Source: Collinsella aerofaciens (GTDB lineage: Bacteria; Actinomycetota; Coriobacteriia; Coriobacteriales; Coriobacteriaceae). Taken from it: DNA of 64,000 bases. The stretch is from the NCBI RefSeq assembly GCF_020181355.1, contig NZ_CP084004.1, positions 1,612,001-1,676,000 of the forward strand, written 5' to 3'. This document shows positions 3,943 through 55,827 of this stretch, in pieces; the first letter of the stretch is position 1, and the number at the start of each line of letters is the position of its first letter. The notes below the pieces were generated by a model that saw only the letters and a program-made list of their open reading frames with translations, searched no databases and had not been told where the DNA came from. The position numbers and the translations under genes are program-made.

Positions 3943-4680
3943 ATGGATAACTATTTGGACTTGATGCGCGCTCGCCGCGAGCAGATTCTGGAACGTTTTT
4001 ATGCGGCGCTCGATCGCGCGGGCCGTCCCCACGACGCCGCGCGCCTCATTGCCGTGTCCAAGACCGTTGGTGTCGATGAGACCGTTGCCGCCATCCAGGC
4101 GGGGTATCGCCATTTTGCCGAGAATCGCCCGCAGGAGCTGGTTCGCAAGCTCACAGGTTTGGCGGAGCATCCGGAGCTGCCCGAGGTGCGCTTCGATATG
4201 ATCGGCAACCTGCAGACCAATAAGATCAATGCGGTGCTGGGCTCAGCCGAGCTGATTCACTCGGTGGGTTCGCTGCATCTGGCGCAGGCGATCTCGAGCC
4301 GTGCTGCCCGCAAGATTGAGGCAGGCGAACTCGCCGGCCCCCAGCGTGTGCTCATTGAGGTCAATGTGAGTGGTGAGGAGTCGAAGGGAGGCTTTTCGCC
4401 CGATGAGATTCGCGCCGCCGCGGGTGAGCTTGCGGAACTTGAGGGAATTTGCGTACAGGGGCTTATGACTATGGCGCCCCGGGGGAATAAGGATATGGCA
4501 CGCCGCACCTTTGCGGGGCTTCGTGAGCTGAGGGATGAGCTGGAGGCGGCGCATCCCGATTTGAACCTGCCTGAGCTTTCCTGCGGCATGAGCGAAGACT
4601 TTGAGCCTGCCCTTGAGGAGGGCTCTACGCTCGTTCGCCTGGGCAGGGTAGTATTTAGCCCGGAGTTTGCAGTAAAATAA
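3943..4680 (+). CDS. yggS: PLP homeostasis protein YggS/PLPBP
   Basis: Pyridoxal-5'-phosphate-binding protein of the alanine-racemase-like fold, involved in B6 and amino-acid homeostasis with no known catalytic activity. The PLP lysine is K40 in LIAVSKTVG; the family motifs HFAENRPQEL, FDMIGNLQTNK and the C-terminal LSCGMSEDFEPALEEGSTLVRLGR are all present. I start at ATG 3943 (245 residues), which has CGGAGG 9 bases upstream; in-frame extension to 3859 would run back through the phoU terminator. It heads the yggS-sepF-yggT-divIVA order that is classic in Gram-positive division clusters (ylmE-F-G-divIVA). Confidence 0.92.
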   Translation: MDNYLDLMRARREQILERFYAALDRAGRPHDAARLIAVSKTVGVDETVAAIQAGYRHFAENRPQELVRKLTGLAEHPELPEVRFDMIGNLQTNKINAVLGSAELIHSVGSLHLAQAISSRAARKIEAGELAGPQRVLIEVNVSGEESKGGFSPDEIRAAAGELAELEGICVQGLMTMAPRGNKDMARRTFAGLRELRDELEAAHPDLNLPELSCGMSEDFEPALEEGSTLVRLGRVVFSPEFAVK

Positions 4681-4740
4681 GGCTCTGAAGTGCGCACTGA
4701 TTATCGGGGCGCCTGCACTAAACCGCGAGAGGACACAACC

Positions 4741-5463
4741 ATGGGCTTCCTTGACGAGATTAAAAATAAGATGCACCTGGGCGGCCAGCAGGGTTACGAC
4801 CAGGGTTATGGCCAGGACGACGACTACGGCTACGATGACGGCTATGACGATAGTTATCAGGGCAACGGCTACAGCGGTGCTTCGGGCGAGGGCTTCTACA
4901 CCCAAGACGAGCCGAGCAACGGCCTGCTTGGTCAGACGCGCCGCGGTGAAGCTGAGTCGGTTGCCGTGTATACGCGCTCCGGTCAGCTGGTCGGCGATGA
5001 CTCCCGCCATGCCACGACGTATAACCCGCCTTCGCGCTCGCAGGACAGTGTTGCGAGCGGTTATCGTCCCGGTGCCTATGACACGCCGTCGAGCTACGCC
5101 GAGAATACCCGCGCCCGTGCCGCCGCTGCACCCGCGCCTGCACCGAGCGATGCCTCGGCCTATGCGAGCAATATCATCAACGCCACGCCGCAGCTGCCGG
5201 CCTATGTCCTGCGCCCCGAGAGCTATGACGACGTGGAGACTGTGGTGCGCCGCGTTCGCACCAAGCAGCCTGTCGCACTGATTTTTGTGGGCGTACGCAC
5301 CGAAGTTGCCAAGCGCGTCTTGGACTTCTCTTACGGCTTTGCCTGCGGTCTGGGTGCCACGGTCAAGGAGGTGGGCGACCGCGTGTTCATGGTGCTGCCC
5401 GCCGGCTGCGAGGTCAAAGATTCCGATCTCAAGAAGCTTCGTGCTGACGGCTATCTTAAGTAA
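4741..5463 (+). CDS. sepF: Cell division protein SepF
   Basis: SepF bundles and anchors FtsZ at the membrane. The 240-residue protein has an N-terminal amphipathic segment (MGFLDEIKNKMHLG) for membrane binding, a long disordered Gly/Tyr/Asp and Ala/Pro-rich linker (residues about 15-150), and the C-terminal SepF domain from about residue 160, with VLRPESYDD and the SYGFACGLGA region. It is longer than the 150-residue Bacillus form because of the linker, as in actinobacteria, where SepF replaces FtsA/ZipA. The start is ATG 4741 with GAGAGGA upstream. Its TAA stop at 5461 is in the same frame as the downstream yggT. Confidence 0.92.
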   Translation: MGFLDEIKNKMHLGGQQGYDQGYGQDDDYGYDDGYDDSYQGNGYSGASGEGFYTQDEPSNGLLGQTRRGEAESVAVYTRSGQLVGDDSRHATTYNPPSRSQDSVASGYRPGAYDTPSSYAENTRARAAAAPAPAPSDASAYASNIINATPQLPAYVLRPESYDDVETVVRRVRTKQPVALIFVGVRTEVAKRVLDFSYGFACGLGATVKEVGDRVFMVLPAGCEVKDSDLKKLRADGYLK

Positions 5464-43721: not shown

Positions 43722-43768
43722 AAAGCCCGCGGTGGGGTACCCGGGCATAGCGTTCGAAAGGGTTGAAC

Positions 43769-44641
43769 ATGTTCGATATGGTTTCTCGCCGCGGATTCGT
43801 TTCGCTTTCTGCTGTCGCCGCTGCCGGCCTTGGTCTTGCCGGCTGTTCGGGCAGCAAGACGTCCGAGCCGGCCGGATCCGATGCCGGTTCTGCTAAGGCA
43901 TCTTCCAAGAAAGCTGTCGAGCTGCAGGTCTTTGCCGCCAACTCGCTCGAGAAGGCCCTGCCCGAGGTTCAGGAGCTCTACACCGAGCAGACCGGCACCA
44001 CCTTTGCCGACACGCAGTTTAAGGCGTCTGGCGACCTTGTCGAGCAGATGCGCGCCGGTGCCGCCGTCGACGTGCTCATCACGGCTTCCAAGGGCACCAT
44101 GGACGACGCCGAGGCCGCCGAGCTCGTCGACGCCGACACGCGTGAGGACATGTTCGTCAACGACCTTGTGATCATTCGCGCCGAGGGCTCCGATACCAAG
44201 GTCGAGGCCATCGCCGGCGTCGCGAATCTGGACGGCAAGATCGCCATCGGCGACGCCAAGACCGTTCCCGCCGGAAAGTACGCCAACCAGGCTCTGGCCT
44301 CCGTGGGCCTCTACACCGGCACCGAGGGCGACGACGGTGAGTATGCTCCCGAGATTGCCGACAAGGTCGCACTGGCCGATAAAGTTGGTACCGCCGCCGC
44401 CTATGTGTCCACAGGCGACTGCGTGGCTGGATTTGTCTACAGCTCCGATATCTTCCGCTACGACGGCATCGAGGAGGCCTTCGTGTGTCCCGAGGACTCG
44501 CACAAGCCCATCGTGTATCCGGGCGCTGTCGCCGAGAGCTCCGAGCATGCCGACGAAGCCAAGGCGTTCATCGACTTCTGTCTGACCAACAAGAAGGCTC
44601 AGAAGATTTGGGCTAAGTACGGCTTTGAGCTTTCCGCGTAG
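43769..44641 (+). CDS. modA: Molybdate-binding lipoprotein ModA
   Basis: Extracytoplasmic molybdate-binding protein of the ModABC importer. The 290-residue protein starts with a signal holding SRRGFV, a twin-arginine motif, and a lipobox LAGC near residue 26, so it is probably a Tat-exported lipoprotein. A Ser/Ala-rich linker follows (residues 27-50), then the domain: LQVFAANSLEKALPEV, FADTQFKASGDLVEQMRAGA, VDVLITAS, VPAGKYANQAL and VKIVYPGAVAESS-like end (IVYPGAV). I start at ATG 43769, 6 bases inside a TTG-started frame. Confidence 0.92.
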   Translation: MFDMVSRRGFVSLSAVAAAGLGLAGCSGSKTSEPAGSDAGSAKASSKKAVELQVFAANSLEKALPEVQELYTEQTGTTFADTQFKASGDLVEQMRAGAAVDVLITASKGTMDDAEAAELVDADTREDMFVNDLVIIRAEGSDTKVEAIAGVANLDGKIAIGDAKTVPAGKYANQALASVGLYTGTEGDDGEYAPEIADKVALADKVGTAAAYVSTGDCVAGFVYSSDIFRYDGIEEAFVCPEDSHKPIVYPGAVAESSEHADEAKAFIDFCLTNKKAQKIWAKYGFELSA

Positions 44642-44709
44642 TGCGGCTTGGCGCGATAATTCCATCGTTTTGTGTTTCACTCCGTCCTTGTATTCGCTTG
44701 GAGCTTTTC

Positions 44710-46152
44710 GTGCTTAATAGATTCCGCATGCTTGTCGCCTGTGCTTTGACCTTCGTGCTTTGCTGGGTGCCGGGATTTGCGTTTGCTGGGGACGCTGAGG
44801 ACGGGGCCCAGGTTGCTGCGACCGCTCATGGGCTTTCCTATGGGATCGAGGGTTTTGAGCGGTTGGCCAAGGGGACCGCTCGTGCCATGGAGAGCCAGCC
44901 TGAGGGCTACCGGTTTCCCGTTGACGAGGACGTGGACCTTGTGGTGGCGCCTGCTGCCGATCGCGTTGTGGTGTGGATATCGCCCAAGGCGGTCGAGAAG
45001 TTTGGATTGGATCTGCAGGACAACGAGTGTGTATCGGGTCTCAAGGTCCTCGTCTGTGAGCTCGACAGCGCAAACTGCATGGGAGGTGCGCAGCTGGGGG
45101 ACGTGGATCTTCCTTGGTATGTCACGGCGGAAACAACGTTTGATGCCGGCGGGTATACCTATAGCTTTGACGAGCGCGGTGCGGATGGGGACCGTTATGT
45201 GGTGATTGCATCAGCCTCGGGTGATGCCAAGGGCGGCGCGCGTTGGCTTGATAGCGCTCACATGGTAGAAGCATCGTCTGTCGTGTTGCGGGATGAGCAG
45301 GGGCCCTTGACCTCTCTGGCTTCCTTTTTGGGCGACATCGACTATCGCCCGTTTTGGGTGTCCATTAAAACGAGCGGTCTTGCCCTGGTGATCGCGTTTG
45401 CGCTGGGCCTGTTCGCCGCGTGGAAGACCATGGGTACCTCGAGTCGCATCAAGGGCCTGCTCGATTCGGTCTTTACGATTCCTATGGTGCTGCCGCCTAC
45501 GGTGTGCGGCTTTTTGCTGCTTATTCTGTTTGGCCGTTCGACCGGGGTGGGCCAGTGGCTCATCGCGCACGGCATCTCGATCGTCTTTACCTGGCCCGCG
45601 GCGGTCATTTCGGCCGTCGTTGTGTCGTTTCCGCTGGTCTACCGCACGGCACTCGGAGCCTTCGAGAGCCTCGACACGCAGATGCTCGATGCGGCGCGCA
45701 CGCTTGGCTGGTCCGAGCGTCGCATCTTTACCAAGCTTATGATGCCCCTTGGTTGGCCCTCAATCGCAGCGGGCACGGTGCTCGCCTTTGCCCGCGCGAT
45801 GGGCGAGTTTGGCTGCACGCTGTTCTTTGCGGGCAACTATGCCGGCATTACCCAGACCATTCCCATCGCCATCTACTTTGAGTGGATGGGGGGCAACACG
45901 TCGGTAGCCCTCTTTTGGGTCGTGGTCGTAATTGCGTTCAGCTTCCTGGTCATTCTGTTCATCAATATGTACACCGCTCATTCGCAAAAGTATCGCGAGC
46001 GGGGCCTTTCCCGTGCGGAGCGCAAACAGGCCAAAGATCTTGCCGGACAGGGCGATTCGCTCGACCCGGCGGGCGGCGATGCCTTGCGTATCGATCGCGA
46101 GGCGCTGGCCGAGCTCATGCGCGATGATGCCGCTTTGCAGGGAGGTCGATAG
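44710..46152 (+). CDS. modB: Molybdate ABC permease ModB with a large extra N-terminal domain
   Basis: Membrane subunit of the molybdate importer. The C-terminal part (about residues 210-430) is a normal ModB permease with the ATPase-coupling loop LDAARTLGWSERRIFTKLMMP. It is preceded by about 200 residues not found in classical ModB (225-230 residues total): an export signal (MLVACALTFVLCWVPGFAFA) and a strand-rich extracytoplasmic segment with CVSGLKVLVCELDSANC and YVTAETTFDAGG. A cytoplasmic tail of about 55 residues follows the permease. I start at GTG 44710 behind TTGGAG; an in-frame GTG at 44641 overlaps the modA stop and is the alternative. The extra domain's role is unknown. Confidence 0.85.
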   Translation: MLNRFRMLVACALTFVLCWVPGFAFAGDAEDGAQVAATAHGLSYGIEGFERLAKGTARAMESQPEGYRFPVDEDVDLVVAPAADRVVVWISPKAVEKFGLDLQDNECVSGLKVLVCELDSANCMGGAQLGDVDLPWYVTAETTFDAGGYTYSFDERGADGDRYVVIASASGDAKGGARWLDSAHMVEASSVVLRDEQGPLTSLASFLGDIDYRPFWVSIKTSGLALVIAFALGLFAAWKTMGTSSRIKGLLDSVFTIPMVLPPTVCGFLLLILFGRSTGVGQWLIAHGISIVFTWPAAVISAVVVSFPLVYRTALGAFESLDTQMLDAARTLGWSERRIFTKLMMPLGWPSIAAGTVLAFARAMGEFGCTLFFAGNYAGITQTIPIAIYFEWMGGNTSVALFWVVVVIAFSFLVILFINMYTAHSQKYRERGLSRAERKQAKDLAGQGDSLDPAGGDALRIDREALAELMRDDAALQGGR

Positions 46153-46155
46153 GCC

Positions 46156-47226
46156 ATGTCGCTCGTTCTGGATATCAAAAAGCGCTATCCCGGGTTTATG
46201 CTCGACATGCAGCTTGAGGCCGGCGAGGATCGTGTGGCGCTGCTCGGTGCCTCGGGTTGCGGCAAGAGCTGTACGCTGCGCTGCATCGCCGGCGTGGAGA
46301 CGCCCGACGAGGGCAAGATCGTCGTCAACGGCGTGACCTTTTTTGACTCGGCGGCGGGCATCAACCTGTCGCCCCAGGAGCGAAAATGCGCCCTGCTGTT
46401 CCAAAACTATCAGCTGTTTCCCAACATGACGGTGGCCGATAACGTATGCGCCGGTGTAAAGGATGCGGGCGACGCCGCCGCGCGCAAAAAGCTCGCCGAG
46501 CGCTATCTGGGCATTTTCGGTCTGTCCGATTTTGCCGACCGCTATCCCGCGCGACTCTCGGGCGGTCAGCAACAACGTGTGGCGCTTGCCCGCATGGTGG
46601 CGGCGCATCCGGGCATTTTTATGTTCGACGAGCCCATGAGCGCGCTCGATTCCTATCTTAAGAGCGCCCTCGAGCAGAACATGCTCGACCTGTTCGACGT
46701 CTGTAACCGTACCGTGCTCTACGTGAGCCACGACATCGACGAAGCGTGCCGCCTGTGCCAGCGTATCTGCGTGATGCACGACGGGCATGTTGAGGAGATC
46801 GGTTCTGTCGAGGACGTGGTCCGCCGTCCGCAGACGCTGGCGGCGCTGCGCCTAACGGGCTGCAAGAATACAAGCCGGGCGTGCAAGATCGGCGACGAAG
46901 AAGTTGAGGCCCTCGACTGGGGCATGACCTTTAACGTAGGTCGGGAGGTCCCCGATGGCGTGGCGTACTTGGGCATTCGCGCAAGCTACTTCCATGTGGA
47001 CAACCGTGCTGAGCGGGGTCGTAACAGCTACGACCTGCATGTGGCCCGTGTGAGCGATTCGCGCTTTGAGCGGCTGGTGCTGCTGGACGTGCCGCGCGGC
47101 GATGCGCCCACGCGTCTGCAGTGGAAGGTCAACAAGGTGGGCGTGCCTGTCGACGAGCTGCCGCAAGCAGGCGAGACGCTGCGCATGCACTTCGATGCGA
47201 GTAGGATCCATTTGGTTTGTCGATAG
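46156..47226 (+). CDS. modC: Molybdate ABC transporter ATP-binding protein ModC
   Basis: ATPase of the molybdate importer. The 356-residue protein has Walker A LLGASGCGKSCTLRC, the signature [14 protein letters not shown] and Walker B IFMFDEPMSALD, followed by the switch His in YVSHDIDEACRL. The C-terminal ~110 residues form a regulatory beta-domain of the mop/TOBE type (VAYLGIRASYFHVDN). It starts 3 bases after modB, so it is co-translated. Closed by a terminator. Confidence 0.93.
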   Translation: MSLVLDIKKRYPGFMLDMQLEAGEDRVALLGASGCGKSCTLRCIAGVETPDEGKIVVNGVTFFDSAAGINLSPQERKCALLFQNYQLFPNMTVADNVCAGVKDAGDAAARKKLAERYLGIFGLSDFADRYPARLSGGQQQRVALARMVAAHPGIFMFDEPMSALDSYLKSALEQNMLDLFDVCNRTVLYVSHDIDEACRLCQRICVMHDGHVEEIGSVEDVVRRPQTLAALRLTGCKNTSRACKIGDEEVEALDWGMTFNVGREVPDGVAYLGIRASYFHVDNRAERGRNSYDLHVARVSDSRFERLVLLDVPRGDAPTRLQWKVNKVGVPVDELPQAGETLRMHFDASRIHLVCR

Positions 47227-47237
47227 CGCCGGGTAAT

Positions 47238-47272
47238 GCCGTCGGGGATATAAGCCTCGGCGGCTTTGTCTT
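47238..47272 (+). terminator. Terminator after modC
   Basis: GCCGTCGGGG pairs with CCTCGGCGGC (with G-T pairs), loop of 7, followed by TTTGTCTT. Confidence 0.8.
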
Positions 47273-47427
47273 GCCGTTCGCCGAATGAGGAATGGCAAAC
47301 TCTTATCAATCAAGATAATTATTTATTAAACGACGATACACGGCGCTGTCGTACGAATGTCAACGGTGTTCGCATGGTCGACGACCGTTGATATAGTTGA
47401 CCTCAACTTGTAAAGGAGGGTACGCAT

Positions 47428-47496
47428 ATGCCGCAGACGACATACATTCGCCGCGTTGCCGCGCGTGCCCTATATATGGCTCGGAGCCGCATATGA
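47428..47496 (+). CDS. Small leader peptide ahead of the double-cubane/selenium cluster, 22 residues
   Basis: Open frame from ATG 47428 to TGA 47494, with an excellent ribosome site (AAAGGAGGG) 8 bases upstream. The peptide starts MPQTTYIRRV and ends YMARSRI; five of 22 residues are arginine. It overlaps the left arm of a hairpin, CGGAGCCG (47482-47489) with CGGCTCCG (47510-47517), and lies 160 bases before the first large gene. It is probably a translated leader that controls the operon; whether it senses an amino acid cannot be seen. It could also be a free-standing peptide. Confidence 0.55.
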   Translation: MPQTTYIRRVAARALYMARSRI

Positions 47497-47655
47497 GCAG
47501 GTATGTTCACGGCTCCGGGAGAGACGACGCACAACTAAATAATCGACTGCAAAGCGGGTTCCCCAAAATTCCGGGTTTGAGCACGGCCGGGCAATCGCCG
47601 TCCGTCGTGCATCGATACCGCCGTTATCCGTTTTTGGTTCGAGAGGGGAACCGTT
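47497..47655 (+). promoter_or_regulatory. Structured leader of the selenium/double-cubane operon
   Basis: After the leader peptide, the hairpin at 47482-47517 is followed by GCAC...GTGC pairing at 47581-47610 and then CCGTTTTTGG at about 47628-47637. The layout resembles leader, stem, terminator-like T-run, gene, but I cannot assign competing structures with confidence. Confidence 0.35.
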
Positions 47656-48939
47656 ATGGCTGAAGAATTCGATTTCCATCCGATGTGGGAGAGCCTCGGC
47701 ATGAATCTTGCCGATCACGACATGCTGCTGGGCGCTGTGGGCCAGATGTACGGCGATATGTTCCTGACGCAGAACAATCGCCCCAAGTCCACGTCCTACC
47801 TGGATTTTGTCGCCACCAACATCCACAGCGGCCGTATTAAGGAGATGCTCGACAAGAAGGAGGCCGGCGAGGCCACCAAGATCGTCGGTTCGTTCTGTGT
47901 GTACGTGCCCGAGGAGATCGTGCTTGCCTGCGATGGCATCCCCGTTGGCCTGTGCTCGGGTGCCGACTGGGCGACCGACAAGGTCGAGGAGCATCTGCCG
48001 CGCAACACCTGCCCGCTCATCAAGAGCTTTGCCGGCTTTAAGCTGGGCGAGGTCTGCCCCTACATTGAGTCGAGTGATCTGGTGGTGGGCGAGAACACCT
48101 GCGATGGCAAGAAGAAGGCCTACGAGTTCTTTGCCACGCAAAAGAACATGTACGTCATGGATATCCCCAACGTGCACGACGAGTCGACGCTCGTGACCTG
48201 GAAGGCCGAGGTTAAAAAGCTTGCCGCCAAGATCGAGGAAGAGTGCGGCGTCAAGATTACGCCCGAGCGCCTGAAGGCTGCCATCCACGCCGTCAACGAG
48301 AAGCGTCGCGCCCTGCAGCGTCTGGCTGCCACGCGCGCTGCCGATCCGGCGCCCATCAGCGGTCTCGACAGCCTGCTGACCGTTCAGGCCGCCTTTATGG
48401 ACGACACGCCGCGTCTGACCGGAGCCATCAACGAGATGGCCGCCGAGTGCGAGCAGCGCGTTGAGGCCGGCGAGGGCGTGGCGCCCAAGGGGACCAAGCG
48501 CATCCTGTACACCGGCACGCCCATGGCCGTGCCCAACTGGAGGCTGTTCAACCTCATCGAGAAGGCCGGCGGCGTTGTGGTAGGCGAGGAGTCCTGCACG
48601 GGCTCGCGCTACTACAAGGACCTGGTCGACGAGTCCGGTGAGACGGTCGACGAGATGCTCGACGCCATCGCCGAGCGCTACTTTAAGATTAACTGCGCCG
48701 TCTTTACGCCCAACGATCAGCGTATGAAGGACATTGTCCAGATGGCCAAGGACTTGCATGCCGACGGCATCGTCGACGTGGCCCTGCAGTTCTGCACGCT
48801 CTACGAGATGGAGTCGTTTGCCGTGGAGAAGGCTGCCGAGGAGGCCGGCATTCCGTTTATGCACATCACGACCGACTACGCCGGCGAGGATGCAGGCCAA
48901 CTGCAAACCAGGATTGAGGCTTTCTTGGAAACCATTTAG
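47656..48939 (+). CDS. Double-cubane-cluster-type 2-hydroxyacyl-CoA dehydratase-like protein, paralogue 1
   Basis: Member of the HgdB/BcrB family (2-hydroxyacyl-CoA dehydratase component), of the single-subunit type whose best-studied members carry a double-cubane iron-sulfur cluster and do ATP-driven reductions of small molecules. The 427-residue protein has the conserved cysteine stretches: [40 protein letters not shown] and [11 protein letters not shown], and the late [10 protein letters not shown]. It is followed by a related protein and by an activase, with no partner C subunit, as in the double-cubane systems. Substrate unknown. ATG 47656 follows GAGAGGGG. Confidence 0.78.
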
Positions 48940-48954
48940 GGGTATCCGTCCCGG

Positions 48955-49056
48955 CGGCTTCCCCAGGCACCCGATCTTGCCGTTCAAACCATCGTTTGCG
49001 TACCAAAGTACGCGGCGCTTCTCTTTCACGGCAACCTCGGGCACCTGGGAAAGCCG
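48955..49056. repeat. Nested hairpin element, member 2 of 3
   Basis: Outer arms CGGCTTCCCCAGGCACCCGA (48955-48974) and the complement at 49037-49056. Inside are TTGCCG with CGGCAA, then TCAAACCATCG, an inner hairpin GCGTAC-CAAA-GTACGC at 48998-49013, and CTTCTCTTTC. It starts 15 bases after paralogue 1 and ends 37 bases before paralogue 2. It matches the element at 50252. Confidence 0.85.
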
Positions 49057-49093
49057 TTTCCTTGGTTGGTCAAAAGGTTTGTTAAGGAGTTAT

Positions 49094-50257
49094 ATGTCGG
49101 AAAATATGGAGCAGCCGTTGCCATCCACGTTTGAGGAGTTCAACGAGCAGCGCAAGGCGGCGTTTATTCGTGTCAAGGATTACAAGCAGGCGGGCAATCG
49201 TCTGGTCGGCTTTTTGTGCAGCTATACGCCGCTCGAGATTATCGATGCCGCGGGCGCCTCGAGCGTGGCCCTTTGCGGTACGTCCGATGAGGTGATTCCC
49301 GAGGCCGAGAAGGTGCTGCCGGCAAATCTGTGTCCGCTCATCAAGTCGACGTATGGTTTTGCCTATTCGCAAAAGTGCCCGTTTACGTACTTTAGCGACA
49401 TGATCTTCGGTGAGACCACCTGCGACGGCAAGAAGAAGATGTACGAGCTACTCAACGAGCTCAAGCGCACGCACATTCTGCATCTTCCGCAGGGTCGCGA
49501 TCGCGCCTACGAGCGTGAAGGCTGGTACGAGGAGTGCTGCCTGCTCAAGGAGGAGCTCGAGAACTTCTACGGCATCACGATTACCGACGATGACCTGCGC
49601 GCTGCCGTCCGTCGTCGCAACCGCTTGCGTGCGGCCCAGCTCGAGATGTTTGCGCTGCAGGCCAACCAGCCGGCGGCCATGAGCGGCGTCGACCTGATGA
49701 GCACCATGTTTGCCGGCACGTTCAGCTTTGATATCGAGGCCTATGCGCAGCAGCTGGAGCAAAAGATTGTCAAGCTGCGCGAGGCCTACGACGCGGGCGA
49801 GCGCCCGGTCGCGGCGGATGCCAAGCGCATTCTGATCACCGGCTGCCCAGTGGGTGGCGTAATCAACAAGATCGGTCGCACCATCGAGTCCAACGGCGGT
49901 GTGGTCGTGTGCATGGACGACTGCTCGGGTGAGCGCACGGCGGCCATGATGATCGACCCGGAGGCTCCCGATATCCTGCGCGCCATCGCCGACCGTTACC
50001 TGGACATCAACTGCTCGGTCATGACGCCCAACGACGGCCGTATGGAAAATACGCTGGCCATGTGCGAGAAGTACCATGTCGATGGCGTGGTAGAGAGCGT
50101 GCTACAGGCCTGCCACACCTTCAACGTTGAGAGCGCGCGCATGCAGGGGGCTGTCGAGGGTGTGGGTATTCCGTATATGAAGATCGAGACCGACTACAGC
50201 AACGGTGACATGGGCCAGATCGAGACTCGCATCGCCGCCTTCATCGAAACCCTCTAG
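49094..50257 (+). CDS. Double-cubane-cluster-type 2-hydroxyacyl-CoA dehydratase-like protein, paralogue 2
   Basis: Second HgdB-family protein of the operon, 387 residues, close to the usual size of double-cubane-cluster proteins (about 380). Cysteines of the N-terminal half are C42, C61, C80 (NLCPLIKST), C95 ([10 protein letters not shown]) and C110 ([15 protein letters not shown]), and later ones lie in [22 protein letters not shown] and QACHTF. It shares the family motifs with paralogue 1 but is clearly diverged (NTCPLIKSF versus NLCPLIKST), so this is an old duplication. ATG 49094 with TTAAGGAG 7 bases upstream. Confidence 0.8.
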
Positions 50258-50360
50258 CTTCCTCAGGCACCGGATCTTGCTCCTCAAACCGTCGCTTGCG
50301 TACCCAAAGTACGCTGCGCTCCTCTTTCGGGGCAATCTCCGGCACCTGAGAAACCTAGAG
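50252..50360. repeat. Nested hairpin element, member 3 of 3
   Basis: Arms begin CTCTAGCTTCCTCAGGCACC at 50252, inside the stop codon region of paralogue 2, and end with CTAGAG at 50360. Inside is TCAAACCGTCG, an inner hairpin GCGTAC-CCAAA-GTACGC at 50298-50314 and CTCCTCTTTC. It is very close to the element at 48955 and shares its words with that at 29198. Confidence 0.87.
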
Positions 50361-50412
50361 CTAAGGCGCCTGAACGCGCAGCTGTCTTTGATGTTTAGAT
50401 TGGGAGAGAGCC

Positions 50413-51177
50413 ATGATAGGGATCGGGATCGATATCGGGTCTACGGCGGCTAAGGCTGCTGTGGTCGACGGGGAGGGTTCGGTGGCGTGGACGTGCGTGC
50501 AGCCAACCGGGTTCTCCTCGGTCGATGCTTCCGAGCGGCTGCGCGAGGCGCTGGCAGCGGCCGGCTATGACGTGGCAGCCGACGATGTGCGTGTGGTCGC
50601 GACCGGCTACGGTCGTGTCGCCGTGCCCTATGCGCACAAGGTCGTGACCGAGATCACCTGCCACGGTACCGGTGCCGTGCGCCTGTTTGGCGATCACGGC
50701 ACGGTGATTGACGTAGGCGGCCAGGACACCAAGGTCATTCAGCTTAAAAGTGGCCGCGTGGCCAAGTTTGCCATGAACGACAAGTGCGCCGCCGGCACGG
50801 GGCGCTTTTTGGAGATCATGGCCGATCGCCTAGGCATTTCCCAGCAGCAGATGGCTGACCTGGCGCGTTCCGGCGAGCCCACCAAGATCAGCAGCATGTG
50901 CACGGTGTTTGCCGAAAGCGAGGTTATCAGCCTGATCGGTCGCGGTGAGCCGCGCGAGAACATTGCGCGTGGCGTGATCGACAGCGTGGTCTCGCGCGTG
51001 GCGACCATGGCCGGGCAGGCCGCGGGCGCCCCGTACTACCTGACCGGTGGCCTGTGCGAGAACGCCTTCGTGGTGGAGCGGTTGGGCGAGCTGCTGGGGT
51101 CGCCGGTGACCACCTCGCCCCAGGCTCGCTTTGCCGGTGCCATCGGCGCGGCGATTCGCGCACAGGCGCTCAATTAA
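50413..51177 (+). CDS. Acyl-CoA dehydratase activase / double-cubane reductase (YjiL-like)
   Basis: ATP-driven electron donor for the two dehydratase-like proteins. The 254-residue ASKHA-fold protein has GIDIGSTAAKAAVV, VIDVGGQDTK, the phosphate loop MNDKCAAGTGRFLEIM and SSMCTVFAESEV. Cysteines C125 and C163 are the ligands by which a dimer holds one [4Fe-4S] cluster. At 254 residues it matches the short activases such as YjiL, which serve single-subunit double-cubane proteins. It starts at ATG 50413 with GGGAGAG upstream. Confidence 0.87.
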   Translation: MIGIGIDIGSTAAKAAVVDGEGSVAWTCVQPTGFSSVDASERLREALAAAGYDVAADDVRVVATGYGRVAVPYAHKVVTEITCHGTGAVRLFGDHGTVIDVGGQDTKVIQLKSGRVAKFAMNDKCAAGTGRFLEIMADRLGISQQQMADLARSGEPTKISSMCTVFAESEVISLIGRGEPRENIARGVIDSVVSRVATMAGQAAGAPYYLTGGLCENAFVVERLGELLGSPVTTSPQARFAGAIGAAIRAQALN

Positions 51178-51247
51178 TGCATCCGCCGCAGGCTCGCATT
51201 CATGCGTATACTGGGAGAAAATGATTGACCGATGAGAGGAGGTATCG

Positions 51248-52297
51248 ATGGCTGACGATCAGATTAAGCTCACGTCTATGACTGCCGCGAGCGGTTGAGC
51301 CGCTAAGTTGGCTCCTGGAGCCCTCGCCCAGGTCCTGGGCGATTTACCCAATGTGCATAACGACAACTTGCTCGTGGGGTTCGATACCTCCGACGATGCG
51401 AGCGTCTTTCGCGTTGGCGATAACTTGGGTCTCGTGCAGTCCATCGACTTCTTCCCACCGATGGTCGACGACCCGTTTTTGTTTGGCCAGATCGCCGCGT
51501 CAAACTCGCTGTCGGACATCTACGCCATGGGCGGGCGGCCGAGCCATGCCATGAACTTGCTGTGCATCCCGAGCTGTCTGGGCGTTGAGGTTGCCGGTCA
51601 GATTCTGGCGGGCGGCGCCGACAAGTGCGTCGAGGCGGGTTGCTCCATCGCGGGCGGTCACACCATCAACGACGACGAGCCCAAGTACGGCCTGTCCGTG
51701 AGCGGGTTTGTCGCGCTCGACCGCATGCTCGCCAACAGCGGCGCGCGCGTGGGCGATGCGTTACTGCTGACCAAGGCGGTTGGCTCGGGCATCATCACCA
51801 CGGCCATTAAGGGCGAGCTCATCGAGCAGGACGAGGCCGCAGCCATGTTTGACTCGATGCGCACCCTCAACGAGGCTCCGATTCGTCTGGCCGAGGGACT
51901 TGAGCTTCACGGCTGCACCGACATCACGGGCTTTGGCCTGATCGGGCATGCGTGCGAGATGGCCGAGGGCTCGGGCGTGCAGATTGAGCTTGCGTCGGGG
52001 GCGGTGCCGCTCTTTGACCAGGTGCTCGACATGGCGCGTTTGGGCATTATCCCCGCGGGCTCCTACCGCAACCAGGACTTCTTTGGCCCGCGCGTGACGG
52101 CCGACGAGGACCTTGAGCCGGGCATGCTCGACGCGCTGTACGACCCGCAGACGTCTGGTGGCCTGCTTATCGCGGCACCTGCTGCCGATGTGGATGAGCT
52201 TGCGCGCCGTCTGCATGCCGAAGGACGTATTGCCGCCGTCGTCGGTCGCGTGTGCGAGTCGGTGCCAGGCGGTCCTGCCGTCCACGTTGTTCGCTAG
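51248..52297 (+). CDS. selD: Selenide, water dikinase SelD, a selenoprotein
   Basis: Makes selenophosphate from selenide and ATP, for Sec-tRNA and other selenium uses. The gene starts at ATG 51248 behind GAGAGGAGG, and an in-frame TGA at 51296-51298 falls at residue 17, in the context SG-Sec-AAK. E. coli SelD has Cys17 and Lys20 at these positions, so TGA codes for selenocysteine, not stop. The full protein is 349 residues, with FDTSDDAS, GQIAASNSLSDIYAMGGRP and GGHTINDDEPKYG. Downstream of TGA are two hairpins: GGCTC-CTG-GAGCC (51310-51322) and CGCCCAG-GTC-CTGGGCG (51325-51341), candidate SECIS. Confidence is high. Confidence 0.94.
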
Positions 52298-52357
52298 CCC
52301 GCACGTTTATGTAACTGTTTACCGTTCTCTAGAACGGTTCTTTCGAAAGGAAAAGCT

Positions 52358-52984
52358 ATGTCTACCAAAATTGAAGTCAATGCCATGGGCGATGCCTGCC
52401 CGCTACCCGTCGTCAAGACGCTCAAAGCCCTGAAGCAGCTCGATGGCGAGGGCGCCGTCGTGACCTCGGTCGATAATGAGACCGCCGTCAAGAACATTTC
52501 CAAGATGGCGCAGGAGAAAGGCTGCACGGCCTCGGTCGAGAAGGTTTCTGACGCCGAGTGGCACGTGACCGTGGCGACCTCTGGTGCCGTTGCCGTGGCC
52601 GATCCCGAGCAGGATGGCGCTGCCTTCTGCGACGCCAACGCCGGCAAGGGCAAGCTCGTCATTTCCGTCTACACCGATTGCATGGGCCGTGGCGACGACG
52701 AGTTGGGCCACAAGCTCATGAAGGCGTTTATCTTTGCCGTGACGCAGCAGGAGGAGCTGCCTGCGACCATGCTGTTCTACAACGGCGGCGCCAAGCTCAC
52801 CGTCGAGGGTTCGCCGGTGCTCGATGACCTGAAGGGGCTGGCGGAGCAGGGTGTCGAGATTCTCACCTGCGGTACCTGCCTGGACCACTTTGGCATTAAG
52901 GACCAGCTTGCGGTGGGCGAGGTCACCAACATGTACGTGATCGTGGAGAAGATGGAGCAGGCCGTGCGTGTCGTGCGCCCGTAG
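52358..52984 (+). CDS. yedF: Sulfurtransferase-like selenium metabolism protein YedF
   Basis: TusA-family protein fused to a DsrE-like domain, found with SelD in genomes that use selenium. The 208-residue protein has the TusA motif ACPLPVVKTLKAL (Cys14 in CPxP), then a C-terminal domain from about residue 95 with VISVYTDCMGRGDDELG and ILTCGTCLDHFG, which carry conserved cysteines for persulfide or perselenide. It lies 60 bases after selD and 19 bases before the DUF3343 gene. It probably hands selenium or sulfur between the lyase and SelD. Confidence 0.9.
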   Translation: MSTKIEVNAMGDACPLPVVKTLKALKQLDGEGAVVTSVDNETAVKNISKMAQEKGCTASVEKVSDAEWHVTVATSGAVAVADPEQDGAAFCDANAGKGKLVISVYTDCMGRGDDELGHKLMKAFIFAVTQQEELPATMLFYNGGAKLTVEGSPVLDDLKGLAEQGVEILTCGTCLDHFGIKDQLAVGEVTNMYVIVEKMEQAVRVVRP

Positions 52985-53003
52985 CGTATTGGTTGGAGTT
53001 GCC

Positions 53004-53255
53004 ATGAGGGAGAAGCGCCCGGCGCTTGTCATCACGTTTCCCACCACGGCGGCCGCCATGGGCTGCGAGTCCCTGTGCATCGAGCGCGGCCTTCCCGGGC
53101 GAACGATTCCCGTGCCCGGGGAGGTCGCTGCCGGCTGCGGTCTGGCGTGGAAGGCGTTGCCTGCCGATGAGGAGCTGCTGCGCAGCGAGCTTGCCGCGGC
53201 GGGCGTTCCCACCGAGGGCTATACCGTGATTGATATGTGGGAGGTCGTGCGATGA
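53004..53255 (+). CDS. DUF3343 protein, putative Se/S carrier
   Basis: Small 83-residue protein of the DUF3343 family, seen beside selenium and sulfur genes. It has VITFPTTAAAMGCES (conserved Cys) and a GRTIPVPGEVAAGCGLAWKAL motif with a second conserved Cys and the GLAWK end. Its stop overlaps the start of the lyase gene (ATGA), so the two are translationally coupled. Start at ATG 53004 with TTGGAG upstream. A role as a selenium or sulfur carrier is the current proposal for the family, not proven. Confidence 0.85.
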   Translation: MREKRPALVITFPTTAAAMGCESLCIERGLPGRTIPVPGEVAAGCGLAWKALPADEELLRSELAAAGVPTEGYTVIDMWEVVR

Positions 53256-54391
53256 TCTACCTGGATAACGCGGCGACGACCATGCACAAGCCGCAGACGG
53301 TCATCGATGCCGTGACGCAGGCGATGTACTCGCTCGGCAATGCCGGGCGCGGCGCCACGTCGGGCGCCCTCGATGCCGCTCGTACGATTCACGGTTGCCG
53401 TGCCAAGCTCGCGCGCCTTTTAGGTTGTCCGAGGGCGGACCATGTGTGCTTTACGCCCAACTCAACCGCGGCGCTCAACACCGCCATCAACGGGGTGGTG
53501 TGCCCCGGCGACCGTGTGGTCACGACGGTGCTCGAGCACAACTCCGTGCTACGTCCGCTTAACCGCCTGGCGGTAGAGCGGGGCGTGACCGTTGAGCATG
53601 CGGGCTGCGATGCGAGCGGCGCGCTCAACTACGACGAGCTCGAGCGGCTGGTGACGCCTGACACGCGTGCCGTAGTGGTGACGCACGCCTCCAATGTGAC
53701 CGGCAATGAGGTCGACATTGCGCGCGTGGCCGCCATGGCCCATGCGGCCGGCGCGCTGGTGATCGTCGATGCCTCGCAGTCTGCCGGCACGGCGCATATC
53801 GATATGCAGGCCATGGGGCTCGACGTGGTGTGCTTTACTGGCCACAAGGGACTCATGGGTCCGCAGGGGACCGGCGGGCTGGCCGTGGCGGAGGGCATTG
53901 ACGTGTGGCCGTGGGCCATGGGCGGCACGGGCGTGCACAGCTTCGATGCGCTGCAGCCGCTTGAGTGGCCCACGCGTCTTGAGGCGGGCACGCTCAACGG
54001 CCACGGCATCGCGGGCCTTTCTGCCGGCCTCGACTTTATCGAGGCGCAAGGCGGGGTCGAGGCGATCGCGGCGCATGAGCGAGCGCTGGCTGATCGCTTT
54101 CTCGCTGGCGTGCGCGAGATTCCGGGGATTAAGCTCTACGGTGCGTTTGACCAGCCCGTGCGCTCGGCGATCGTCTCACTCAACGTGGGTGATATCGACT
54201 CTGCCGAGATCTCGGACGCGCTCATGCAAGGGTGGGGGATTGCGACGCGCCCCGGCGCCCATTGCGCTCCGCTCATGCACCGCGCGCTCGGGACCGAGCG
54301 CCAGGGTGTCGTTCGCTTCTCGTTTGGGTATTTCAACACGGACGAGGAAGTCGATACCGCGATTGACGCTTTGCGCGATTTAGCCTGCTAA
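53252..54391 (+). CDS. Cysteine desulfurase / selenocysteine lyase-like aminotransferase (TIGR01977 type)
   Basis: Class V PLP enzyme of the NifS/CsdB group, of the type found with selD and yedF in selenium loci. The 379-residue protein has IYLDNAATTMHKPQTV at the start, LEHNSVLRPL, VVVTHASNVTGNE, DASQSAG with the PLP Asp, the lysine in FTGHKGLMGPQGTGG and the catalytic-loop Cys in RPGAHCAPLMH. It probably supplies selenium or sulfur from cysteine or selenocysteine to the DUF3343, YedF and SelD chain. ATG 53252 overlaps the previous stop by four bases. Confidence 0.9.
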   Translation: MIYLDNAATTMHKPQTVIDAVTQAMYSLGNAGRGATSGALDAARTIHGCRAKLARLLGCPRADHVCFTPNSTAALNTAINGVVCPGDRVVTTVLEHNSVLRPLNRLAVERGVTVEHAGCDASGALNYDELERLVTPDTRAVVVTHASNVTGNEVDIARVAAMAHAAGALVIVDASQSAGTAHIDMQAMGLDVVCFTGHKGLMGPQGTGGLAVAEGIDVWPWAMGGTGVHSFDALQPLEWPTRLEAGTLNGHGIAGLSAGLDFIEAQGGVEAIAAHERALADRFLAGVREIPGIKLYGAFDQPVRSAIVSLNVGDIDSAEISDALMQGWGIATRPGAHCAPLMHRALGTERQGVVRFSFGYFNTDEEVDTAIDALRDLAC

Positions 54392-54414
54392 AGCTGCTAG
54401 ACCGTTTATACTTG

Positions 54415-54446
54415 CGGGATGGGTGTTTTTGCCCGTCCCGTTTTTG
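54415..54446 (+). terminator. Terminator at the end of the selenium cluster
   Basis: CGGGATGGG pairs with CCCGTCCCG around an 8-base loop and is followed by TTTTTG. Confidence 0.88.
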
Positions 54447-54468
54447 TTTCGACCCGAAAGGTGTGCCT

Positions 54469-55827
54469 ATGGCCTCATCCGCACCGCGCGGTCTGCGCTC
54501 CGACCATGTCGTTACCGTCGGCATTGCGCTGTTCTCGATGCTCTTTGGCGCCGGTAACCTCATCATTCCGCCATTGCTGGCACTTCAGGCCGGCACGGCC
54601 ACGCCGCTTGCCATGATCGGCTTTTTGATTGCCGCTATCGGTCTGCCTGTTATGGGATTTATCGCCGTCGCGCTCGCCGGCACGGCCCGCGAGCTGGCTG
54701 GGCGCGTGCATCCTAAGTTTGGCGAATTCTTCGTTGCGGCGGTGTATTTGGCCATCGGCCCGTGCCTGGCCATTCCGCGCACAAGCTCTACGGCCTTCGA
54801 GATGCTGGTGCCGCTACTGCCCGAGGGCGTTTCGCTCGGCACGGCTCGCCTGGTGTTTGCCGTTGGCTTCTTTGTCGTCGCGTTTGCGCTCACGCTGCGT
54901 CCGGGCGTTATCACGCGCGTGCTCGGGCGCATTACGGGCTCCGCGCTCATTGCGCTCATCGTGCTGGTCGTGGGTGCTGCCGTGATCTCGCCGCTGGGAC
55001 CGGCTGCCGCGCCGCAGACTCCCTACAATGCCGGTGCTACCGTGCAGGGCTTTTTGACCGGTTATCAGACCATGGATCTGCTTGCGTCGCTCGCCTTTGG
55101 CATTATCATCGCCGAGACCATTCACGAGCTGGGCGTTACCGACGACAAGCGCGTGACCTTCGAGATTTCGCGTTCCGGTGTGATCGCCGGCGTGCTCATG
55201 GCCATCATCTACTGCGGCCTGGCGCTTGCCGGAATGCAACTCGGCACGGTTATGCCCGATGCCACCAACGGCGCCGCGATTCTTGCGCGTTCTGCCTCTA
55301 TGCACTTTGGTCTTGCTGGCACGGTTGTCGTCTTTGCGATTTTCTTCCTCGCTTGCATGAACGTGTGCATCGGCCTTATCAGCTGCTGCTCACGCTACTT
55401 CTGCGAGACGTATGTGGTCGAAGGGGGAGCGGAGGCTTCCGAGGAGGCCATGCGCCGACCCTTCGCGATTCTCGCCTTTGTGTTCGCAGCGTTTTCGTGC
55501 GTGCTCTCCAACGTGGGTCTCGACGTGATCCTCATGTTCTCGGTGCCTATGCTCAATGCCCTGTATCCCGTTGCCATCGTGCTGGTACTTATGGGCCTGG
55601 TGCACGGCTTTTGCGACGCGCATTCGCAGGTATGGGTCTGGGTCGGCGGCGTTGTCGCGGTGCAGAGCGTGATCACCTCGGTTCGCGACGCGTTCTTTGC
55701 GGGCGCGTGGCTACCGTTTGATGCGCTGCCACTGGCAGATATCGGTGCCGCGTGGGCGCCGGTTGCCGTGGTTGCCTTTGTGATCGGTCTGCTCCATAGT
55801 CGTTTTGTCGCACATTCGAGGAGCTAG
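54469..55827 (+). CDS. brnQ: Branched-chain amino acid transporter BrnQ
   Basis: Cation-coupled importer of leucine, isoleucine and valine, of the LIVCS family. The 452-residue protein has about 12 membrane segments and the family start VTVGIALFSMLFGAGNLIIPP, with RVHPKFGEFF and YLAIGPCLAIPRTSSTAFEM, the conserved BrnQ stretch. It starts at ATG 54469 (GAAAGG upstream); the frame back to 54412 runs through the terminator. Single gene between the selenium cluster and the tRNAs. Confidence 0.92.
   Translation: MASSAPRGLRSDHVVTVGIALFSMLFGAGNLIIPPLLALQAGTATPLAMIGFLIAAIGLPVMGFIAVALAGTARELAGRVHPKFGEFFVAAVYLAIGPCLAIPRTSSTAFEMLVPLLPEGVSLGTARLVFAVGFFVVAFALTLRPGVITRVLGRITGSALIALIVLVVGAAVISPLGPAAAPQTPYNAGATVQGFLTGYQTMDLLASLAFGIIIAETIHELGVTDDKRVTFEISRSGVIAGVLMAIIYCGLALAGMQLGTVMPDATNGAAILARSASMHFGLAGTVVVFAIFFLACMNVCIGLISCCSRYFCETYVVEGGAEASEEAMRRPFAILAFVFAAFSCVLSNVGLDVILMFSVPMLNALYPVAIVLVLMGLVHGFCDAHSQVWVWVGGVVAVQSVITSVRDAFFAGAWLPFDALPLADIGAAWAPVAVVAFVIGLLHSRFVAHSRS

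Follow-up and report, generated by a model that had tools for sequence, protein, structure and literature searches.

The Collinsella aerofaciens contig NZ_CP084004.1 carries, at 47656-54391 of the 64,000-nucleotide stretch analysed here (the window), a run of seven genes on the plus strand that encode two double-cubane cluster proteins (DCCP1 and DCCP2), an activase, the selenophosphate synthetase SelD, YedF, a selenium/sulfur (Se/S) carrier-like protein and a NifS-like lyase. We found that genes for double-cubane cluster proteins (DCCPs) occur with, and lie beside, genes for SelD or YedF, and that this link does not depend on which use the genome makes of selenium. The association of DCCP with selenium is real and broadly supported, and a mechanism behind it is plausible. 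We regard it as an evenly balanced proposition that DCCP and its activase carry out an ATP-driven reduction that would supply selenide to SelD. The seven genes may act as one selenium-supply operon, for which we infer a single transcript.

Profile searches matched each of the seven proteins to a named family (Table 1). All positions given in the preliminary description of this DNA were correct, as was the four-base overlap of the last two genes (NifS-like ATG at 53252, carrier stop ending at 53255). That description called the first two proteins HgdB-like. Both genes are there, and DCCP is the better name given the end-to-end match of DCCP1 to a solved DCCP. Both proteins match NF040772 at full length and above its curated cut-off of 350 bits, and the alignment of DCCP1 with the C. 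hydrogenoformans DCCP of known structure (6eno/7yyl) spans the entire protein (E 2e-126). Eight cysteines are invariant in 136 of 136 DCCP rows (127 of them different), including DCCP1 and DCCP2, and the same eight are present in the aligned C. hydrogenoformans chain, an observation on the alignment and not on ligand roles in the structure. The activase matches 7yyl_E, the partner of that DCCP (E 2e-41), belongs to TIGR00241 (cut-off 125 bits) and has the C125 and C163 described earlier, each of which is invariant in 109 activases. We rejected a true 2-hydroxyacyl-CoA dehydratase or benzoyl-CoA reductase for both proteins: DCCP1 scored 105 bits against a cut-off of 700 and 88 against 454, and DCCP2 scored 83 and 74 bits, also under the cut-offs. 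DCCP1 and DCCP2 are 37% identical, fall on opposite sides of a supported split of the DCCP tree (clades A and B) and are the only matches to the HGD-D family in their own genome. Compared with C. hydrogenoformans DCCP, the window has two paralogues of two clades per activase, in a run with SelD and the carriers.

The preliminary description had SelD containing selenocysteine (Sec), and we found an in-frame TGA at codon 17 (51296-51298) counted from the ATG at 51248, with a GC-rich hairpin behind it. YedF belongs to its family and has domains PF01206 and PF02635 by Pfam scan; among 40 relatives C14 is kept in 95%, and C171 and C174 in all. The carrier, whose start may be the ATG at 53004 rather than 52968, has a cysteine (C57, in AAGC) that is invariant in 20 sequences. 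Similarly, the cysteine of the NifS-like protein in GAHC (residue 343, numbered from the GTG at 53237) is invariant in 27 sequences. The NifS-like protein falls outside SclA (NF040779), with 347 bits against a cut-off of 525. SelD, YedF and a TIGR01977 lyase also stand together in the Enterococcus faecalis EF2566-EF2568 cassette. Two papers that deal with this cassette do not contain the words dehydratase or activase.

The preliminary description had named chance-level co-occurrence as an outcome that would refute the link between these families. We ran this test and the link was not refuted: both shared presence and neighbourhood were far above chance in several phyla. In 149 Coriobacteriia, DCCP exceeded its cut-off in 63 genomes, SelD in 117 and YedF in 91 (48 near full length). 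SelD was present in 59 of the 63 DCCP genomes, compared with 58 of the remaining 86 (Fisher P 9e-5, kinship uncorrected). Within Collinsella, 14 of 15 genomes with SelD had DCCP, as did 0 of 4 without SelD. Neighbourhood is a stronger test than shared presence. We found DCCP within 10 kb of a full-length YedF in 29 of the 32 genomes that have both, and in 30 of the 63 DCCP genomes it had SelD or such a YedF no more than 10 kb away. The YedF count uses the 48 near-full-length rows and leaves aside 44 other over-cut-off rows (43 genomes), mostly the C-terminal half. HGD-D relatives under the DCCP cut-off behaved differently: 0 of 24 had either gene, SelD or full-length YedF, within 20 kb, although 16 of them were in SelD genomes. 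These 24 are selected longer rows, chosen apart from shorter ones and a 326-bit fragment in genome G095 (genomes and loci carry our own G and L labels); 8 (G060, G146, G092, G098, G113) were in genomes without SelD and 4 (G113, G095) in Sao/Hgc loci.

The link was also seen in other phyla. SelD was present in 47 of 50 genomes with a DCCP locus (50 of the 67 loci L016-L082), which belong to Desulfobacterota, Nitrospirota, Verrucomicrobiota and Spirochaetota among others and include one archaeal bin; Clostridia are outside our sampling. In 194 Verrucomicrobiota, DCCP was found in 6 genomes, SelD in 11 and both in 5; leaving out the centre genome, SelD was present in 4 of 5 with DCCP and 6 of 188 without (P 1.8e-5). 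One Verrucomicrobiota locus (L180) has the row DCCP-activase-selA-selB-selD, with selD confirmed and selA and selB assigned by phmmer. DCCP lies beside selA in L183 and near selD and selA in L181 (selA by phmmer), and in L182 it is not near selD or selA. After exclusion of the four C. aerofaciens loci, 76 loci remained. YedF or SelD was near DCCP in 15 of them, where about 0.7 would be expected if these were single genes in a genome of 3.5 Mb, and 28 held one or more of 13 families linked to selenium, some of which are loosely defined. Across supported branches of the DCCP tree, loci switch between having and lacking a selenium gene close by at least 22 times, a count inflated by short loci, whose 'no' label partly reflects lack of sequence. 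This is hardly compatible with one inherited gene order. E. coli and M. jannaschii were the only two of 14 named control genomes in which DCCP exceeded its cut-off, and likewise the only two for SelD.

We judged Sec use by SelA and use of the selenium-molybdenum (Se-Mo) cofactor by YqeB. The 63 Coriobacteriia genomes with DCCP divide into 35 with SelA only, 13 with YqeB only, 10 with both and 5 with neither; in the 30 with clustered genes the numbers are 9, 12, 9 and 0. Since SelA-only and YqeB-only genomes both carry DCCP, DCCP tracks SelD and not a single selenium use, and on this split we rejected a role confined to Sec or to the Se-Mo cofactor. Locus L122 (genome G086), which has no SelA and a SelD without TGA, has the window's exact seven-gene order. 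L120 brings together a Se-dependent xanthine dehydrogenase, DCCP, YedF, a NifS-like protein, SelD, YqeB and an XdhC-like protein, and L034 a SelB-like protein, DCCP, activase, YedF, the putative Se transporter YedE, the carrier and SelD. With SelD as the common denominator, DCCP would act at or before selenophosphate, or in a handling step common to all selenium uses.

In the window's own genome selenium most likely goes into Sec as well as the Se-Mo cofactor, because SelA, tRNA-Sec and YqeB are all present. We found selA at C1:1688515 with a SelB-like gene (our homology call) behind it, and yqeB at C1:130214. The preliminary description of SelD, YedF, carrier and NifS-like as a complete selenium-handling set is slightly too strong; selA, selB and tRNA-Sec start about 22 kb past the end of the operon and yqeB is distant. 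No molybdenum hydroxylase and no YqeB or YqeC was found among the scanned window proteins. At C1:1685308-1693226 (L114 1309-9227), selA, the SelB-like gene and tRNA-Sec lie together with a molybdopterin oxidoreductase, another Se/S carrier (131 amino acids), a MobA-like protein and a FocA-like protein named by eye.

We propose the following order of steps. Acting on selenocysteine, the NifS-like protein would take up selenium (or sulfur) as a zero-valent, enzyme-bound atom, which the small carrier and YedF may hold and hand on. ATP hydrolysis by the activase would drive electrons of low potential into DCCP1 or DCCP2, and the [8Fe-9S] cluster there would reduce zero-valent or oxidised selenium to selenide. 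SelD would then convert selenide to selenophosphate, which would feed Sec (selA, selB, tRNA-Sec) and the Se-Mo cofactor (yqeB). Given the NifS-like, carrier and YedF neighbours, reduction of bound or zero-valent selenium is the simplest fit. The Se(0)/selenide couple lies very low, at about -0.7 V, so that electrons driven by ATP would be of use in this reduction; a printed value was sought and not found. Selenide is the substrate of SelD (PMC9312934), and the chemistry of the family consists of ATP-dependent electron delivery to the [8Fe-9S] cluster, at potentials that in benzoyl-CoA reductase, a relative, are lower than -600 mV (PMC11971306). We infer that DCCP acts before selenophosphate, that its substrate is a selenium species and that transfer runs in this order. 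The preliminary description had offered reductases that act on a selenium or sulfur species or are built with selenium. A selenium substrate fits a link that extends across Sec-only and Se-Mo-only genomes. The built-with-selenium half is unsupported: there is an in-frame stop in 0 of 83 over-cut-off DCCP rows, so the surveyed DCCPs are not selenoproteins.

Several observations weigh against this role. Four Coriobacteriia genomes have DCCP without SelD (G103, G113, G117, G137; completeness 73-86%). Conversely, DCCP is dispensable, as 58 of the 86 genomes without it have SelD, and in one Collinsella genome (G142; L133 about 4040-4760) DCCP1, DCCP2 and most of the activase are deleted, leaving an activase 3' remnant, while SelD, YedF, carrier, NifS-like and SelA are kept. 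In the phylum of the archaeal bin G183, DCCP exceeds its cut-off in 8 of 194 genomes and SelD in 0 of 194; one of the 6 DCCP Verrucomicrobiota (G315) lacks SelD, as do 3 of the 50 genomes of the many-phyla set (G183, G161, G167). The bin G183 (L062) is a real exception, with a clade-A DCCP and no SelD found in the bin, and G161 and G167 are real exceptions too. None of the 13 selenium families was found in 48 of the 76 loci, many of them short, and the selenium neighbours vary. Finally, the compounds that the C. hydrogenoformans DCCP is known to reduce are acetylene, azide and hydrazine (PMC11971306).

The SelD-free DCCPs show a pattern of their own. Seven sequences from six genomes of the G183 phylum form a third clade with G315 (support 100/98), although G315, with its long branch and unusual composition, is of unsure placement. 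Of the 8 genomes, 6 contribute these seven archaeal sequences to the tree, in which G408 is absent and L062 is labelled in the SelD-bearing group; in that phylum 16 genomes match DCCP at E 1e-90 or better. A SelD-like match in L062 was rejected as ThiL. A NapH/MauN-like protein lies beside DCCP in 8 of 9 loci of the SelD-free group (L173-L179 and L184, not L172) and in 0 other scanned loci; in the three tested it scored under the NapH cut-offs. From clade and partner together, the SelD-free exceptions mostly belong to a third clade with another electron partner. A further reading, to which we give somewhat less confidence than to selenide supply as such, is that DCCPs of clades A and B are ATP-driven reductases devoted to selenium. 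They would provide SelD with selenide from a protein-bound substrate held by YedF and the small carrier, and the NapH-linked, SelD-free third clade would do something else.

DCCP with its activase is also known from two other kinds of cluster. Type 1 mlp clusters share DCCP and DCCPR with the window (PMC10418091), and the corrinoid methyltransferases of those clusters were not found in the window operon. Our Pfam scan covered ten proteins of 43763-55824, the modB-like gene not among them, and in these we found no Mlp methyltransferase, corrinoid protein or Ram activase; the National Center for Biotechnology Information family (NCBIfam) scan covered eight window proteins and found none of SaoT, SaoE, SaoX, SaoB, SaoP or SaoA. 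The SAO/HgcAB organometallic operon, of which these are members, has DCCP and activase directly upstream in L139, where they precede SaoT-E-X-B-P-A with a MerB-like protein, and HgcA/HgcB lie further on. L139 also holds NifU-like and DsrE-like proteins, and a fused activase-DCCP-like protein is present in L138 and L139, at 219 bits in L139, under the DCCP cut-off. Among called genes only such activase-DCCP-like fusions were seen, and none with SelD, YedF, carrier or NifS-like. DCCP-activase also stands before Sao genes in L016 and L018, and a similar layout is found in L138, L141 and L143; the Sao genes were named by hidden Markov model (HMM) in L139, by phmmer in L016 and L018, and by layout and clustering only in the last three.

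The nearest rival is reductive cleavage of C-Se bonds (methylselenol, dimethylselenide, selenosugars) by DCCP and activase, which would free selenide for SelD like the nitrogenase-like methylthioalkane reductase. We consider it unlikely. It would also account for the SelD link. PMC10418091 reports DCCP genes in type 1 mlp clusters and assigns most of these clusters to methyl-selenium metabolism, and the L139 layout, with Sao genes, MerB-like protein and HgcA/HgcB, means that in some genomes the partners of DCCP handle organo-element compounds. In the window, however, a methyltransferase or corrinoid protein occurs in 0 of the 10 Pfam-scanned proteins, and DCCP stands with carriers and a NifS-like lyase, proteins that by family name handle selenocysteine and bound selenium.

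A role without a selenium substrate is likewise improbable in our view, if not quite as much so. DCCP and activase would serve redox or detoxification reactions (azide, hydrazine, acetylene, sulfur species) and occur with SelD since both suit strict anaerobes. The known in vitro substrates lack selenium (PMC11971306), SelD-free DCCPs exist, and SelD users can dispense with DCCP. But a shared lifestyle fails to explain why DCCP adjoins SelD, YedF or SelA in different phyla, or why 0 of the 24 related non-DCCP proteins are near SelD or YedF, 16 of them in SelD genomes. The SelD-free bacterial G315, moreover, groups with the archaeal DCCPs (100/98, on a long branch) and has another partner gene.

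Selenium could instead be delivered by SelD, YedF and carrier into the double-cubane cluster as bridging selenide, a third selenium cofactor. The gene neighbourhood speaks for this as well, and one of the titles cited by PMC12491067 names selenide bridges in synthetic iron-sulfur clusters. Against this, SelD has other users, SelA or YqeB, in 58 of 63 DCCP genomes, and DCCP is kept in the SelD-free group. We know of no report of selenium in the solved DCCP, and hold this reading to be very unlikely. Least likely of all is that DCCP serves only selenium-dependent molybdenum hydroxylases (cofactor maturation or reduction), which the adjoining modABC-like genes of the window and the joining of DCCP with YqeB and an XdhC-like protein in L120 and L130 (L120 also with its xanthine dehydrogenase) might suggest, since SelA occurs without YqeB in 35 of 63 DCCP genomes, including 9 of the 30 with DCCP beside SelD or YedF.

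Table 1. Features of the seven-gene run and its surroundings: feature, window positions, strand, evidence
Terminator-like hairpin, upstream border, behind modC-like gene	47238..47264	+	consensus scan, weak
Promoter-like site TTCGCA-17-TATAGT, TG ahead of second hexamer	47369..47397	+	consensus scan, weak
Leader block with hairpin	47473..47544	+	72 bases identical between window and L004
DCCP1, double-cubane cluster protein, clade A, 427 aa	47656..48939	+	NF040772, 491 bits
Repetitive extragenic palindromic (REP)-like repeat between DCCP1 and DCCP2	48957..49052	+	genome matches, fold
DCCP2, double-cubane cluster protein, clade B, 387 aa	49094..50257	+	NF040772, 487 bits
REP-like repeat, second copy	50257..50353	+	genome matches
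Activase / DCCP reductase, ATPase with C125 and C163	50413..51177	+	TIGR00241, 234 bits
SelD, selenophosphate synthetase	51248..52297	+	TIGR00476, 338 bits even without first residues (cut-off 125)
YedF, TusA-like and DsrE-like domains, CPxP and CGxC	52358..52984	+	TIGR03527, 214 bits (cut-off 110)
Se/S carrier-like protein, DUF3343	52968..53255	+	PF11823, now named Se_S_carrier, 67 bits
NifS-like cysteine desulfurase/selenocysteine lyase	53252..54391	+	TIGR01977, 415 bits (cut-off 377)
Terminator-like hairpin, downstream border, behind NifS-like gene	54414..54441	+	consensus scan, weak

The seven genes are bordered on both sides by terminator-like sites (Table 1). Upstream lies a three-gene modABC-like transporter, for which the mod names are our reading of general Pfam domains in genes 1 and 3, and downstream lies a brnQ gene. 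The upstream terminator-like site is weak because the scan found 8 where 5.2 were expected, and the promoter-like site is weak because it found 2 where 1.6 were expected. The source genome is 2.28 Mb, and DCCP1 is 99% identical in four C. aerofaciens records. A phage origin was looked for, and no phage record matched DCCP2. In two C. aerofaciens genomes a glycosyltransferase of the GT4 family is inserted between activase and SelD (L005 13399-14754, L006 13535-14761). Relatives adjoin SelD in L131 (6144-7406), lie near SelA in L129 (11258-12700) and lie near DCCP in L055 and L030. This glycosyltransferase is a candidate selenosugar enzyme, though far under the SenB cut-off (32 against 300 bits).

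The leader upstream of DCCP1 contains a block conserved in full in the divergent strain L004, while the rest of 47401-47655 is 79% identical. The hairpin at 47471-47545 folds at about -25 kcal/mol and has a GGUA loop with an A-U closing pair, which we take to resemble a selenocysteine insertion sequence (SECIS) loop, a likeness of the loop only that we leave open. The alignment, read by eye, suggests a reading frame of 22 codons whose stop is a UGA in this hairpin. The block is a possible selenium-responsive control site; it matched no Rfam family. The palindrome of about 97 bases, present in two copies (one between DCCP1 and DCCP2, the other between DCCP2 and the activase gene), matches the genome at 9 places including the query, and is therefore REP-like. 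The intergenic hairpins were rejected as regulatory RNA, their two weak Rfam matches, both to microRNAs, being under gathering scores.

The preliminary description had called this the best candidate for an undescribed system. This holds in part: we found no use-independent link in print, and the link between DCCP and selenium is partly published (Lin 2015; Kountz and Balskus 2023). C. aerofaciens SelD and a SirA-like protein (YedF) are listed side by side in Table 1 of PMC2432076. The selenium region of Slackia heliotrinireducens in Table 1 of PMC5322559 includes 2-hydroxyglutaryl-CoA dehydratase subunits and an activase with YedF, DUF3343, a Sec lyase, SelD, SelA and SelB; in the available part of that source the dehydratase and activase appear only as STRING partners (of YedF, LysR_Se and DUF3343), without a mechanism. 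A 'dicubane cluster protein' is provisionally linked to selenium metabolism in PMC10418091, which cites, among others, Haft and Gwadz 2023. The words dehydratase, activase, HgdB and benzoyl are absent from the main text of a paper on the Methanococcus selenium regulon (PMC11097638). In the literature searched, with most subscription journals outside it, we found no statement of a use-independent DCCP-SelD link or of a SelD-free DCCP clade. The window operon is a sharpened, testable case and not a wholly new system.

A 2025 figure legend states the biological function of double-cubane proteins as unknown (PMC11971306). Selenide supply by DCCP, if true, would be the first physiological role for the double-cubane cluster in DCCP. 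To our knowledge the supply of selenide to SelD is unsettled, and DCCP would in that case fill a gap at the very start of selenium assimilation, with a step shared widely among anaerobes. The link in SelA-only and YqeB-only genomes, together with the SelD-free clade, merges the role of DCCP and the supply of selenide into one testable question.

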